Source: Bacillota bacterium (GTDB lineage Bacteria > Bacillota > Clostridia > Ch29). Taken from it: DNA of 64,000 nt. The stretch is from positions 62,001 through 126,000 of the forward strand of contig JABVCK010000028.1 of the NCBI GenBank assembly GCA_013540605.1. Reading direction: 5' to 3'. A program made the translations under genes and the position numbers. This document shows positions 3,963 to 34,370 of the stretch, piece after piece. The first letter of the stretch is position 1, and each line of letters starts with the position of its first letter. The notes beneath the pieces are model-generated. The model worked only from the letters and a program-made list of their open reading frames with translations. It was not told the origin of the DNA and searched no databases.

Positions 3963-4853
3963 ATGAAAAAACAACTTAAAGCCGACCTTTTGCTCCTTAC
4001 CGCTGTAATTATATGGGGCAGCACCTTTGTACTGACCAAAAACGCTCTGCTGGAAATACCTACATACAACTTCCTTGCCCTTAGATTTGGAGTTGCAGCT
4101 TTATTGCTGGTGGCAATATTCTTCAAAAAGCTGCTGAAAATAGAAAAAGCCGCATTAACGGGCGGCCTGCTCCTTGGCCTTCTCCTGTTCATCGGCTACG
4201 CCTTTCAGACCGTTGGGCTAAATTATACGACAGCTTCCAAATCCGCCTTTATCACGGGCTTCAATGCCGTTCTGGTGCCTGTGCTCTCGGTCTTCGTACT
4301 GAGAAAAAAACCCGAGTTTATGGCTGTGCTGGGAGTGTTCTGTGCGGTAATAGGCCTCGGATTCCTGACTCTGGGAGACAATTTCATGCTCAACATAGGC
4401 GATTTCTACACCCTTGTCTCCACCTTTGCCTATGCAATGCAGATAATCCTGGTGGACAGGTACACCGCAGGAAGCGATTCCGCAACAATAGCTACCGTAG
4501 AGATAAGTGTAGTGGCAATTCTCAGCGTGCTCTTTTCCTTCATCCTCGAAAGCCCGGTTGTCCCGTCAACGGCCAATGTATGGATAGCCGTATTCATAAC
4601 ATCGGTATTTGCAACCACTTATGCGTTCCTGGTACAGAGCATGGTGCAGAAATATACGACACCGACCCATACAGCGCTTCTGTTTGTAGGAGAGCCCGTC
4701 TATGCCCTGTTCTTTGCCTACATACTGCTGGGTGAACTTCTATCTCTTAAACAGCTTACCGGGTGCATGCTCATCCTGTGCGGGATGCTCCTTTCCGAGC
4801 TGAAACTTTCGGTGAAAAAAGAAAAAAGCGGCAGGACCGCCTCCGATTGCTGA
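3963..4853 (+). CDS. EamA/DMT-superfamily transporter
   Basis: This 296-residue membrane protein has ten predicted hydrophobic segments in two EamA repeats. The first repeat opens with LLTAVIIWGSTFVLTKNAL and includes the TLRFG-like LALRFGVAALLLV; the second covers the C-terminal half and ends with a basic lysine-rich tail. Members export amino acids, metabolites or drugs with proton coupling; the substrate is unknown. I place the start at ATG 3963 rather than the in-frame ATG 18 bp upstream because GGAGATGATGAC sits directly before it. It has its own promoter and no obvious operon partner. Confidence 0.88.
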   Translation: MKKQLKADLLLLTAVIIWGSTFVLTKNALLEIPTYNFLALRFGVAALLLVAIFFKKLLKIEKAALTGGLLLGLLLFIGYAFQTVGLNYTTASKSAFITGFNAVLVPVLSVFVLRKKPEFMAVLGVFCAVIGLGFLTLGDNFMLNIGDFYTLVSTFAYAMQIILVDRYTAGSDSATIATVEISVVAILSVLFSFILESPVVPSTANVWIAVFITSVFATTYAFLVQSMVQKYTTPTHTALLFVGEPVYALFFAYILLGELLSLKQLTGCMLILCGMLLSELKLSVKKEKSGRTASDC

Positions 4854-4861
4854 AAAAAACA

Positions 4862-5198
4862 TCGATGACCAGTTGCCAGTTGACAGATGTCAGTCGGCAG
4901 TCGGCAGTTGGCAGAAATCAGCTATCAGATGCCAGTTCCCAGTGGTCAGGATGAAGACTCCAGAGATCTACCTTGACGCCTGTGATCTGATAACTGATAA
5001 CTGAATTATTGCACCTGATACCTGCGATCTGCGATCTACTAACTAGGACTTAGTACTTGTGAACTGTGATCTGTAATCTGTAAACTATCAACTACGAACT
5101 ACCAACTACGAACTACGAACTAAATCTATCACCTGCGATCTAGCACCTGGCACCTGGCACCTGGCACCTGTGATCTGTGATCTGTGAATTAGCATCTG
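4862..5198. repeat. Intergenic array of degenerate short repeats
   Basis: About 340 bp with no gene. It is built from 7-11-nt words that recur with small changes: CAGTTGGCAGT, TATCAGATGCCAGT, GATAACTGATAACTG, TGATCTGTAATCTG, AACTACCAACTACGAACT and CACCTGGCACCTGG. Similar text recurs at 8.25-8.48, 13.56-13.62, 18.45-18.50, 29.63-29.83 and 34.28-34.37 kb. There is no constant repeat-spacer structure. Confidence 0.8.
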
Positions 5199-8124: not shown

Positions 8125-8224
8125 GGTCCAATCACTCCCTGTCGGTTTTGTCTGATTATCGATATTGTTCCCTATCTTTGCATAAAATGAAATTACTACT
8201 ATAATATAATAACCATAAGATAAG

Positions 8225-8479
8225 CAATTTGCAATATAGTTACCGGTTAACAGATGACAGGCGTCAGTTATCAGTTACTAGTTGTTAGTTGTTAGACATC
8301 AGGAAAAAGCTAGAGGGTAAAAAACAATACATGACCCCAATGCCTAAGAACTAGGATCTAGGATCTAGGATCTAGCACCTGTGCCCTGTGAACTGTGATC
8401 TGGTATCTGTGATCTACCAACTACGAACTACGAACTATAATCTAGCACCTGCGATCTGCGATCTACCGACTGCGATCTG
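8225..8479. repeat. Intergenic short-repeat array between lonA and lonB
   Basis: The same degenerate words as at 4.86-5.20 kb appear here: TTACTAGTTGTTAGTTGTTAG, CTAGGATCTAGGATCTAGGA, CTACGAACTACGAACTA and GATCTGCGATCTACC. The lonA promoter region lies at its left side (about 8125-8225). I see no gene. Confidence 0.75.
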
Positions 8480-13508: not shown

Positions 13509-13559
13509 ATATGCTCCTCCTTGTTAATGATAGTCCTCAGTATGTATTTTTGGATCACG

Positions 13560-13615
13560 GTTCACAGGTGCTAGGTGCCAGTTCGTAGTTGGTAGTTCGT
13601 AGTTCGTAGTATGAC
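13560..13615. repeat. Short-repeat tract upstream of tig
   Basis: AGGTGCTAGGTGCCAGT followed by several GTAGTT/CGTAGTT units lies between the tRNA-Gly gene and tig. It belongs to the same degenerate family as the other intergenic arrays. Confidence 0.65.
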
Positions 13616-13665
13616 TAAAACATTATAACACAACAATATTTATATAACAAGTCACTGACATTAAT

Positions 13666-20004: not shown

Positions 20005-20171
20005 AAAAAACGTCACCCCCATTTTTGATTCTATTATACAATACTTAAAAGGGCATTATCCCGGGAAATTAACGGGCAGAGGCAAAAACACAAAATAAAA
20101 TTAGAAAATTTTTCTACACAATATTGCAATATTTTCTATTATAATATAGAATATAAACAAAAATAAACAAA

Positions 20172-20264
20172 AACTCGATAAAGGCAAACCCGTCGAAAGA
20201 CGGTGACGCAAAGCTAAAGGGGCTACAGCGCCGTGAGCGCTATGCCAGCCAGTTGCCGGAAATA
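20172..20264 (+). promoter_or_regulatory. c-di-GMP-I (GEMM) riboswitch
   Basis: The leader carries the conserved GEMM-I elements in order: GGCAAACC, a hairpin CCGTC-GAAA-GACGG with GNRA tetraloop, GACGCAAAGC, a second hairpin capped with GTGAGC, and GCCAGCCAGTTGCC closing the P1 stem (GGCAA/TTGCC). A promoter-like TATAAT stands near 20140-20150. A terminator follows at 20281-20304, so c-di-GMP probably controls termination ahead of the transglutaminase gene. Confidence 0.93.
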
Positions 20265-20280
20265 TGAGTACTGTATATTA

Positions 20281-20304
20281 CCCGCACTGGCGTGCGGGTT
20301 TTTG
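20281..20304 (+). terminator. Riboswitch expression-platform terminator
   Basis: CCCGCA / TGCGGG stem followed by TTTTT, 16 bp after the riboswitch P1 stem and 50 bp before the coding region. Confidence 0.85.
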
Positions 20305-20311
20305 TATTATT

Positions 20312-20331
20312 GGGGACAGCGGTGTGTCCCC
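20312..20331. repeat. GGGGACA...TGTCCCC palindromic element (short form)
   Basis: On the minus strand this reads GGGGACACACCGCTGTCCCC. The first 15 bases are identical to the start of each 57-bp tandem repeat unit at 29.4 kb, which carries the same TCCCC end with an inserted middle. Confidence 0.6.
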
Positions 20332-28262: not shown

Positions 28263-29399
28263 CTAGATTTTTTCAAACAGTTCCAACAGCTGGTATGCGG
28301 TTCTGTCCAGGTTGTATTTTTCTTCGGCAAGCTGTCTGCCCGTCCGTCCCATGTCCATCGCAGCATCCGGATGCTCTATGAGATAAATGATATTGTCCGC
28401 CAGAGCCTCCGGGTTATTATAATCTTCAATGACAAGGCCGTTAACGCCATGCGTGATTACTTCGGCGTTGCCCCCACGGTTGGTGGTTATTATAGGCAGG
28501 CCGGCAGCCATGGCTTCATAGTGCACCCTTGCCAGGGGCTCCTTCCACTGGGAAACGCATGTGAATATGTCGCCAAGGTTGTAGTATCTGGGAATTTCCC
28601 TGGGGGGTAGAAATCCGGTGAATATCACCAAATCCTTCAATTCTTCCGCCGCCAGCTGCAGCTGCCTCACATAGTCATCGGTCGCGTTGGTACCGTACCA
28701 TTTGCTGCCTACGAACACTACCGCTGTCCGGGGATGCTTTTCCGTCACCCGCTTCATCGCCTGCAGCAGTATATGCGCGCCCTTTTTACTGCTCAACCTT
28801 CCCACGTAAAGTATAACCTTATGGTCATTGATGCCAAACCTTGTGCGCATGGCATTCCTCTCTTCAATCGCCTCCTGGGACCAGAACGGTTTATACTGGC
28901 TTATATCGGCACCGGAATACACAACATTTAACTTATTTTCAGCAGACGGATACAGGTTTTTCACGCCGTCCGCTATGAACCTGCTCACAGTTGTGATGAA
29001 GCTTACCCTATCTATGCAGTTCTGCGCTTTTTCAGGATCGATCTTCTTGGGCAGGAACATCTCATTGTGAAGGCTGAGGCTGAAAGCGCTGTCCGGCGCA
29101 AGCGGGCTCAGGGAAGGAATCCACACCGGCCTGTTGAAAACATGGATCAACCGGTACTCACCGGAAATCACGCGTTTAAGGCTGTTGAGATATTCGTGCC
29201 TGGTTCTTCCCTGTATCCGGACGTGCCGGACATTTCCCGCAGTCTCTGTTGCGGGCAGTTTGCTGCTTTGAAGGCTGAACACGGTTATATCATGGTACAT
29301 GGAAAGAACAGGCAGTATTCCGTCAATATATATTTGAATAGCTCCTCCGGATATTGCCGGAACGGGCAGTTTTTCAGTGCAGATAAGCGCAATTTTCAT
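28263..29399 (-). CDS. GT4-family glycosyltransferase, CotSA-like
   Basis: A 378-residue GT-B enzyme: N-terminal Rossmann-like MKIALICTEKLPVPAISGGA, C-terminal GT4 domain with LYVGRLSSKKGAHILL, FTGFLPPREIPRYYNLGD and the EX7E-like EPLARVHYEAMAAGLPIITT. It probably adds sugar to a surface polymer. Two cotS-like kinases lie just upstream on the same strand, matching the cotS-cotSA arrangement of spore coat loci. The longer open frame that reaches 29705 is only the 57-bp repeat being read through; the ATG at 29399 has AGGAGGAAATT in front and begins the conserved domain. Confidence 0.9.
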   Translation of the reverse strand: MKIALICTEKLPVPAISGGAIQIYIDGILPVLSMYHDITVFSLQSSKLPATETAGNVRHVRIQGRTRHEYLNSLKRVISGEYRLIHVFNRPVWIPSLSPLAPDSAFSLSLHNEMFLPKKIDPEKAQNCIDRVSFITTVSRFIADGVKNLYPSAENKLNVVYSGADISQYKPFWSQEAIEERNAMRTRFGINDHKVILYVGRLSSKKGAHILLQAMKRVTEKHPRTAVVFVGSKWYGTNATDDYVRQLQLAAEELKDLVIFTGFLPPREIPRYYNLGDIFTCVSQWKEPLARVHYEAMAAGLPIITTNRGGNAEVITHGVNGLVIEDYNNPEALADNIIYLIEHPDAAMDMGRTGRQLAEEKYNLDRTAYQLLELFEKI

Positions 29400-29414
29400 A
29401 ATTTCCTCCTTTAA

Positions 29415-29608
29415 GGTATGGGGACACACCGCTGCTACGCGAGTATTCCTTGCCGCGGAATGTCCCCGATCGGTATGGGGACACACCGCTGCTACGCAAG
29501 TATTCCTTGCCGCGGAATGTCCCCGATCGGTATGGGGACACACCGCTGCTACGCGAGTATTCCTTGCCGCGGAATGTCCCCGATCGGTATGGAGACAAAC
29601 CGCCGCTT
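29415..29608. repeat. 57-bp tandem repeat, three full units plus a partial
   Basis: Units begin with GGTATGGGGACACACCGCTG at 29415, 29472 and 29529; a diverged partial unit starts at 29586, and a last GGTATGGGGACACA lies at 29612. Each unit contains GGGGACA and TGTCCCC arms around a CCGCGG-containing middle, so each can form a hairpin. The units differ at one base (GCGAGT or GCAAGT). There are no spacers, so it is not a CRISPR. Confidence 0.9.
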
Positions 29609-29629
29609 TAAGGTATGGGGACACACTTT

Positions 29630-29830
29630 GTGTTAGTTCGTAGTTCGTAGTTGGTAGTTCGTAGCTCTCAGATCGCAGTCGACAGATCGCAGGCACTAGG
29701 TGCAATAATTCAGTTTCTAGTTCTCAGTTATCAGTTCTCAGCCTCAAAGGTTAGTCTTACAGGCCTTTTCCCTTAAGCTTTACCCTATGCACTGGCAACT
29801 GAGAACTGGCATCTGATAGCTAATAATTAG
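29630..29830. repeat. Intergenic short-repeat array
   Basis: GTAGTTCGTAGTTGGTAGTTC, CAGTTATCAGTTCTCAG and ACTGAGAACTGGCATCTGAT tracts belong to the same family as at 4.9 and 8.3 kb. They fill the gap between the 57-bp repeats and the end of the first cotS-like gene. Confidence 0.7.
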
Positions 29831-30861
29831 CCACTGATCACTATAATGTCCCCGATATTATGCTGTAGCATGGTAAATTTGGCCTGTTCCATTCTTGCAG
29901 CCCTCTCAATTTTGCTGTCCTCTACCGGTTTGTTTTTCTTGAACAGGTTCTTTACCTCGGCAAAAAACCAGTGCGGAAACAAAAGGTCGATTTTTAATAT
30001 TTCCTTTTCCTGTTTTGACAGGCCGTTGTTCTTTTCATAGCTTCCCAGTATCTGCGATGCAATGCTCTTATCCGTCCAGCCGTTGTCTTCCATCTGCTTC
30101 CCTATAAGCTTTCGCAGATCCCTGGCAGGCAAGTCATAGGTTACCCCGTCCAGGTCCAATACAAATACTCCCTTTTCCGATAGAAGGGCGTTGCCTTCAC
30201 CGTAGTCCTGGTGGCATAAGGGGCATTGTTCGTTGTCAACCGATGCAGCAGCACTGTACGGCGACGCATCCAGAGCCTTTATGGCAATGTCTGCCATTTC
30301 AATTACAGAGTCAACATGTTTGAGGTAGGAGCGGTACCCCTGCTGCCCGGCTTTGGACATGGACAGGTTCTTCCACTTAGCCATATTGTCTCTCATGGAG
30401 CGGTACTGTCCCGGCCACTTTCCGAGCTTTGAGGAGGTCCTCGCTTCAGCCGGGGGCCGGTACCCTACAGAGGCTTTGTGAAAACGGGCCAGGCCCTCCA
30501 TCGCCAGACGCAGGTCAAAAGCATCGCTGAAGTTCAAATCCCTGCCTTCAATCCACTCGTATAATACGAAGAGGTGATCCATATATTGAGTTATTGCATT
30601 GTTTTCACGGTTTAAGTGCACCGCCGGAACGTTGCCTCCGTTATTATAGATATAAACCTGGGCATAGACCGAAAACATAGCTTTATCCACCGAATGCCTG
30701 AGCCTTTTCAGGCACATCCGCCGGCCTTTAAAGGCCACTTCCCATAGCGTCTTCAGCCCTTTGTTCTGTATAAGCCTTATCTGATCGGGAGCAATATTAT
30801 AATTAGCCAGGACATTTTCAGCCATCTGCGTCAGGCCGGTGTCATTCTGCTTTATGCTCAC
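29827..30861 (-). CDS. CotS-family spore coat kinase-like protein (1)
   Basis: A product of about 344 residues with the CotS/YutH/YsxE aminoglycoside-phosphotransferase fold: N-lobe KGLKTLWEVAFKGRRMCLKRL, hinge FVLYEWIEGRDLNF near 100, catalytic loop CPLCHQDYGEGNALL near 218 (HxD replaces the usual HGD), and VFVLDLDGVTYDLPARDL with the metal-binding Asp. CotS proteins are coat components of Bacillus spores; a kinase activity is not established. I choose GTG 30861, spaced 7 bases from GGGAGGA. It is followed by the CotSA-like gene and preceded by a second cotS-like gene. Confidence 0.88.
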   Translation of the reverse strand: MSIKQNDTGLTQMAENVLANYNIAPDQIRLIQNKGLKTLWEVAFKGRRMCLKRLRHSVDKAMFSVYAQVYIYNNGGNVPAVHLNRENNAITQYMDHLFVLYEWIEGRDLNFSDAFDLRLAMEGLARFHKASVGYRPPAEARTSSKLGKWPGQYRSMRDNMAKWKNLSMSKAGQQGYRSYLKHVDSVIEMADIAIKALDASPYSAAASVDNEQCPLCHQDYGEGNALLSEKGVFVLDLDGVTYDLPARDLRKLIGKQMEDNGWTDKSIASQILGSYEKNNGLSKQEKEILKIDLLFPHWFFAEVKNLFKKNKPVEDSKIERAARMEQAKFTMLQHNIGDIIVISG

Positions 30862-30883
30862 GTGCAATCCTCCCTTTCATTGG

Positions 30884-34000: not shown

Positions 34001-34256
34001 AATCTTCCTCTTCTTCTTGCTCTTCGGGCTCTTCCTCTTCTTCTATTTCAGCGTTCATCCATGAAATCTTTACTGCTAATTGCCCCTCCATCTCATCGTT
34101 TTCATACTTGACTTTGTAATCCAGCTCTTTGTCTTCAGGGATTTCTACCTGAACGTCTTCCACTGTCAGCTGGCCCTTAAATAATTTGGTAAATAGCTCA
34201 CCCATGAAACCGATGCACTCTTTTCTGGTACCGACATACCCTTCTTTGTATTTCAT
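33999..34256 (-). CDS. Small acidic protein, amphi-Trp-like
   Basis: An 85-residue protein with the pattern of amphi-Trp domain proteins (alternating charged and hydrophobic residues, ELDYKVKYENDEMEGQLAVKISW) and a tail of almost only Glu (EEEEEPEEQEEEED). ATG 34256 follows GAAAGGAGAGGAAAT. Members of this small family have no established function. It stands alone between the IS110 right flank and a short-repeat tract. Confidence 0.6.
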   Translation of the reverse strand: MKYKEGYVGTRKECIGFMGELFTKLFKGQLTVEDVQVEIPEDKELDYKVKYENDEMEGQLAVKISWMNAEIEEEEEPEEQEEEED

Positions 34257-34274
34257 ATTTCCTCTCCTTTCTAC

Positions 34275-34370
34275 TTTTCAGATCACAGTTCACAGATCAC
34301 AGATCACAGGTGCTAGGTCCTAGCCACTGGTCACTAGCCACTGAATTTCTGGCCACTAAAATGTCCCTGT
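34275..34370. repeat. Short-repeat tract
   Basis: GATCACAGTTCACAGATCACAG, then GGTGCTAGGTCCTAGCCACTGG: same degenerate repeat family. Confidence 0.65.

Follow-up and report, generated by a model that had tools for sequence, protein, structure and literature searches.

The 64-kb stretch of DNA analysed here (the window) carries, directly ahead of a gene for a spore-coat glycosyltransferase, a tandem array of 57-bp units, which raises the question of what kind of sequence this is, how it came to be repeated, and whether it contributes to the gene beside it. TRF detected the array at 29415-29607 as 3.4 copies as assembled, with 96% matches and a score of 358, the highest of any tandem in the window, confirming the three near-identical units described in an initial annotation of this DNA. 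Each unit comprises a 48-bp hairpin and the spacer GATCGGTAT, and the region is laid out as follows:

28263-29399, minus strand: GT4 glycosyltransferase gene (CotSA-like; Pfam PF00534, 2e-42), with its ATG at 29397-29399
29405-29411, minus strand: SD sequence of the glycosyltransferase gene, AAGGAGG, read in the sequence about 5 nt from the ATG
29410-29419, plus strand: 5' tag TTTAAGGTAT belonging to the first copy and present on that side only, with conservation across 96 left ends in the genome
29420-29467, plus strand: hairpin unit 1
29468-29476 and again 29525-29533, plus strand: spacer, which repeats the left flank GGTAT
29477-29524, plus strand: hairpin unit 2, with a private base (CGCAAG)
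29534-29581, plus strand: hairpin unit 3
29586-29607, plus strand: fourth left half, decayed (GGTATGGAGACAAACCGCCGCT), from the sequence and TRF
29617-29856, plus strand: outer member of the composite, with left end GGGGACACAC at 29617 and right end AATGTCCCCGAT
29827-30867, minus strand: CotS-family gene (TIGR02906, 1.1e-81)

Unit 3 leads into the decayed fourth unit GGAGACAAACCGCCG and from there to the further left end at 29617, with a new copy of the tag lying between the decayed fourth half and this left end. The loop of the outer member is filled with a satellite of 7-bp period (about 29631-29830), and the right end of the composite, TAATGTCCCCGAT, falls at about 29845-29856. The array itself was found where the initial annotation had placed it (29415-29625), but the composite continues as far as this right end. 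Satellites of 7-bp period also occur elsewhere in the window, at 4851-5170, 8221-8465, 13531-13620 and 34241-34340, with units such as AACTACG, GATCTGC, CACCTGG and AGTTCGT, and a heptamer satellite lies inside the loop of many hairpin copies genome-wide; a literature search for heptamer satellites in this group gave nothing relevant.

The genes at this locus are ordered CotS-family, CotS-family, GT4 glycosyltransferase. In two relatives the second of these CotS genes lies 12 bp from the glycosyltransferase gene (G001) or overlaps it by 4 bp (G003); here a composite of ~445 bp stands between them, and the last CotS codons (IGDIIVISG) come from its right end. The earlier description of the repeat as an element of the glycosyltransferase 5' leader is therefore too narrow, since the composite stands between genes that are adjoining or overlapping in these two relatives. 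As predicted from this arrangement, it probably uncouples translation of the glycosyltransferase from that of CotS and adds several hairpins to their shared mRNA.

Searches of the organism's own genome (3.35 Mb, assembled in 36 contigs) revealed that the hairpin is present far beyond this locus. The 15-mer GGGGACACACCGCTG has 59 exact matches (30 forward and 29 reverse), against none for its reversed control and a chance expectation of about 0.006, our own estimate from base count alone. Exact matches number 154 for the left end GGGGACACACC and 153 for the right end GGAATGTCCCC, compared with 2 and 4 for the respective controls. With about 150 copies in the genome and a local 57-bp array, these counts support the proposal of a dispersed element that has expanded here. 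The relative that had been pointed out near 20.3 kb was likewise borne out, as an exact minus-strand match to the 20-mer GGGGACACACCGCTGTCCCC and a shortened form of the element:

20312-20331, minus strand: minimal 20-bp copy with both arms and a 6-nt loop, an exact match

The stretch preceding this copy (GGCAAACCCGTCGAAAGACGGTGACGCAAAGCTA..., window 20170-20303) has what we take to be a resemblance to a cyclic-di-GMP-I (GEMM) riboswitch, and is followed by a hairpin with a run of T.

To describe the surroundings of the copies, about 130 clusters were fetched as stretches, and genes were called with a simple ORF script. In terms of left (L) and right (R) ends, 38 of the 130 clusters are simple (LR) and 14 are nested pairs (LLRR), with more elaborate forms reaching LLLLRRR or the tandem LRLRLR; 58 show one end alone under the criteria used, in some cases because a heptamer satellite occupies the loop. 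Almost all of the copies lie between genes, 11 of 120 clusters being within ORFs of at least 100 aa. Arrays of 57-bp units were found at four loci, namely the window and C8, C9 and C11. Units differ at 0-1 positions within an array and at 0-3 between arrays; those of C9 and C11 are identical to one another, and the window and C8 arrays have their own variants. Since units agree better within than between arrays, each 57-bp array most likely grew in place. The spacer consists of GATC followed by GGTAT, or of GATC followed by GGAAA where the left flank is GGAAA, so that it echoes the copy's own flank, and the flanks fall into paired classes (GTAT/GAT, GTCA/AAT and GTAA/TTTTGA).

In each copy the tag TTAAKGWMW precedes an imperfect hairpin of the form 5'-GGGGACA-CA-CC...GG-AA-TGTCCCC-3' with variable inner sequence. 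Folded as a single strand, this gives a stem of 7 bp, then a 2x2 internal loop (CA/AA), a second stem of 4 bp topped by a mismatch, and finally a variable loop. When the search pattern left the inner dinucleotides free, the CA/AA mismatch was kept in 58 of 64 distinct palindromes of the own genome, and few palindromes were fully paired at this point. We then compared 108 distinct simple copies from this and other genomes with shuffled pairings, which ignore relatedness. The first inner pair varies between G-C, T-A, C-G and A-T and is paired in 105 of the 108 copies, against a shuffled mean of 50 and maximum of 65, while the second is paired in 97 of 108, against 78 in shuffles. These inner-pair changes are covariation of the kind that belongs to a folded strand, and one of the two strands is marked by the polarity of CA/AA. 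In addition, the 10 nt to the left of the hairpin are conserved across 96 left ends as TTTAAKGWMW (the G at position -4 reaching 1.67 bits), and conservation ends beyond them. The right flank is less conserved than the left. The one-sided tag is also seen in other genomes, but more weakly.

The GGGGACAC of the element matches exactly the motif GGGGWSAS described for the TIRs of the enzymes named TIRYT (Di Nocera et al. 2013, PMC3733652; TnpAREP subclass 2.1 in Quentin et al. 2018, PMC6006769). The own genome holds one RAYT-like Y1 gene (L036:1375-2278; 263 aa; Y1_Tnp, 6.2e-18), which scores 77.8 bits against REP_Tyr_transpos, for which the NCBIfam cut-off is 80. Of the 391 genomes of the class, 17 contain the strict element pattern. 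Counted by hand, strong RAYT hits (E no higher than 1e-15) occur in 16 of these 17 carriers, compared with 104 of the 374 other genomes (Fisher p 3.7e-8, a value that is overstated, the carriers being related and spread over 12 genera). The own RAYT gene is flanked by palindromic ends ATATATCAAGGGGACGGTTCTCTTGATATAT, whose core is GGGGACGGTTCT rather than GGGGACACACC, and among 80 relatives of RAYT genes in other genomes, 48 are flanked on either side by an inverted repeat of 12 bp or more, in most cases with variable arms enclosing this same core. One copy of the element (L057) bears TCAAGGGGAC, like the RAYT ends. In an incomplete sample of more than 120 loci (own genome, family, carriers and 80 loci from named genomes), no RAYT or TIRYT gene had exactly the ends of the element, a point on which the element differs both from TIRYT TIRs and from GTAG REPs, and it is for this reason that the mechanism class is one that we only infer. 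Nor did inspection by eye of the own-genome ends listed as far as C25 give a convincing case of a gene-sized pair of element ends. As a separate matter, Firmicutes RAYT-like genes (L036 and L149-L228) have terminal palindromes with the constant GGGGACGGTTCT core and gene-specific arms. The genome also contains four near-identical, apparently recently active IS200-type copies (G000:C12:7369, C34:18321, C35:44790 and C35:159402); these were rejected as mobilisers, their ends (TTTTAGTATCAATG... and ...GTGGTAGTTTAGT) being unlike those of the element.

Taken together, we favour with moderate confidence the reading of the array as a head-to-tail local expansion of a short, non-autonomous, REP-like hairpin mobilised by an enzyme of the RAYT/TIRYT type. 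Copies would move as single-stranded DNA through the action in trans of a Y1 (HUH) transposase, which would recognise the hairpin together with its tag and insert it at TAA-like sites. Such sites would include stop codons, positions ahead of SD sequences, and the loop or flank of the element itself, and because targets of this kind occur within the element, copies would come to be nested and stacked. The 57-bp tandem would then have been enlarged in place, by unequal exchange or by slippage between direct repeats. The boundaries given for the element are approximate, and its movement is putative.

An alternative is that the element is a MITE: a shortened descendant of a DDE-type IS, bounded by terminal inverted repeats, that moves as double-stranded DNA and generates target duplications. 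Like the MITEs RUP, NEMIS and bcr1 (named in PMC3733652), it is short, non-coding and intergenic, lies near genes and has inverted ends; its insertions are nested, and the left-flank bases GTAT or GGAAA recur after GATC at several copies. However, simple copies show no evident target duplication of fixed length when their flanks are compared by eye, and the conserved flank is one-sided. The element is also smaller (48-57 bp, versus 70-300 bp for MITEs), and its conserved internal mismatch and polarity would be needless for perfect TIRs. We therefore regard a MITE as unlikely.

The placement of the copies relative to genes bears on a further alternative, that the hairpin is a cis-acting RNA, a regulatory 5' leader (an attenuator, a protein-binding site or a stabiliser of the mRNA) retained because it acts on the adjoining gene. 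An SD sequence and the start codon of a leftward gene lie near 42 of 97 left ends, as against 9 of 98 right ends and 3.7% of random positions. In other genomes, the same is true of 9 of 46 left ends and 0 of 40 right ends (random, 3.6%). Start codons concentrate 20-30 nt from the hairpin, and the stop codons of rightward genes are often 5-7 nt away. A hairpin so close upstream of start codons would suit a regulatory leader, as would the covariation of its stem and the stability of the leader RNA fold (z -5.0). Yet family searches identified the adjoining downstream genes as unrelated (metG, argF, dnaA, trpS, metK, glnA, fhs, pyk and buk), and numerous copies are located behind stop codons; such a role is also opposed by the nesting and tandem growth, and the region 29300-29950 has no Rfam match up to E=1. 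Moreover, the flanking genes read the element on both strands, yet the polarity of its mismatch is fixed, which makes a conserved RNA function of fixed polarity unlikely. A cis-acting RNA is thus a distinctly improbable explanation of the element, which may nevertheless have acquired an effect on expression later.

The initial annotation had also suggested that the array might add blocks of 19 residues to the glycosyltransferase. Such blocks would be comparable to the in-frame Rickettsia palindromic elements (RPE; see PMC3733652). It is true that 57 is three times 19 and that the array frame is open as far as a TTG at 29705, but a stop is absent from five of the unit's six frames, so the open frame is uninformative. 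A strong SD sequence and ATG lie directly downstream of the array, and in four full-length orthologues the alignment begins at residue 1 of the protein starting at this ATG. Upstream of the script-chosen starts, there is an in-frame stop at the C9 and C11 arrays, and none in the 70 codons checked at C8. The likeness to RPE lies in a single 48-bp copy that is in frame within the ORF of a UvrD-like helicase and has the same position in two genera (L064:1501-1548 and L135:1559-1606), where the flanks are about 85% identical, the element ends identical and the interiors wholly different. The only orthologue of this helicase, in G001, likewise bears the element, and other UvrD/PcrA proteins are too distant for an empty-site comparison. 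Unlike RPE, the element is nearly always intergenic. Most probably, then, the spore-coat glycosyltransferase gains no residues from the array, and the coding explanation is very improbable. It is just as improbable that the array is a repeat collapsed or expanded during assembly: near-identical short tandems do assemble poorly, and the genome is in 36 contigs, but the CGCAAG of unit 2, where units 1 and 3 have CGCGAG, disfavours the duplication of a single unit by the assembler, and 57-bp arrays stand at four separate loci, two of which (the window and C8) have private variants.

How does the proposed RAYT/TIRYT-mobilised hairpin compare with known systems? Like the TIR repeats of TIRYT enzymes, it is dispersed, forms dimers and clusters, and occurs in genomes that hold RAYT/TIRYT-like genes; unlike them, it nests, builds 57-bp tandems, and keeps an internal mismatch and a one-sided tag. 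With the REP and REPIN sequences associated with RAYTs (the GTAG superfamily; PMC2817692, PMC3116915), it shares the form of a short, intergenic, imperfect palindrome of high copy number, arranged in clusters and with a one-sided tag 5' of the hairpin foot. Its tag is TAAKG followed by 3 nt, however, and not GTAG or GTGG placed 0-2 nt 5' of the hairpin, and its copies lie head-to-tail and nested rather than in head-to-head pairs. Di Nocera et al. (2013, PMC3733652) report repeats of the GTAG kind from Proteobacteria, Cyanobacteria, Chloroflexi and the PVC group. Quentin et al. (2018, PMC6006769) state that searches near subclass 2.1 tnpAREP genes gave no REP-like sequences. On the available sequences, the element appears to behave as a REP/TIR repeat, in a variant whose unusual features are self-nesting and abutment on coding ends.

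A tentative and somewhat doubtful extension is that the element is a self-targeting single-strand transposon, with a TAA-type target within its own tag and loop, so that new copies enter old ones. If this were true, onion-like nested palindromes and tandem arrays would result, genic insertions would be steered to the A-rich stretch before SD sequences and to stop codons, where they would do little harm, and the paired flank classes would represent guide and cleavage sequences changing together.

Our analysis points to a family of hairpins, abundant and conserved in structure, in a lineage of spore formers; its nested copies keep a record of the order in which they were inserted. Given its fit to the TIRYT motif and its correlation with RAYT-like genes, the idea that this family is a substrate of the RAYT/TIRYT class becomes testable. 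Finally, copies of the element directly precede the ribosome binding sites of core genes that include dnaA, metG, metK and glnA, so that it could influence many genes simultaneously.
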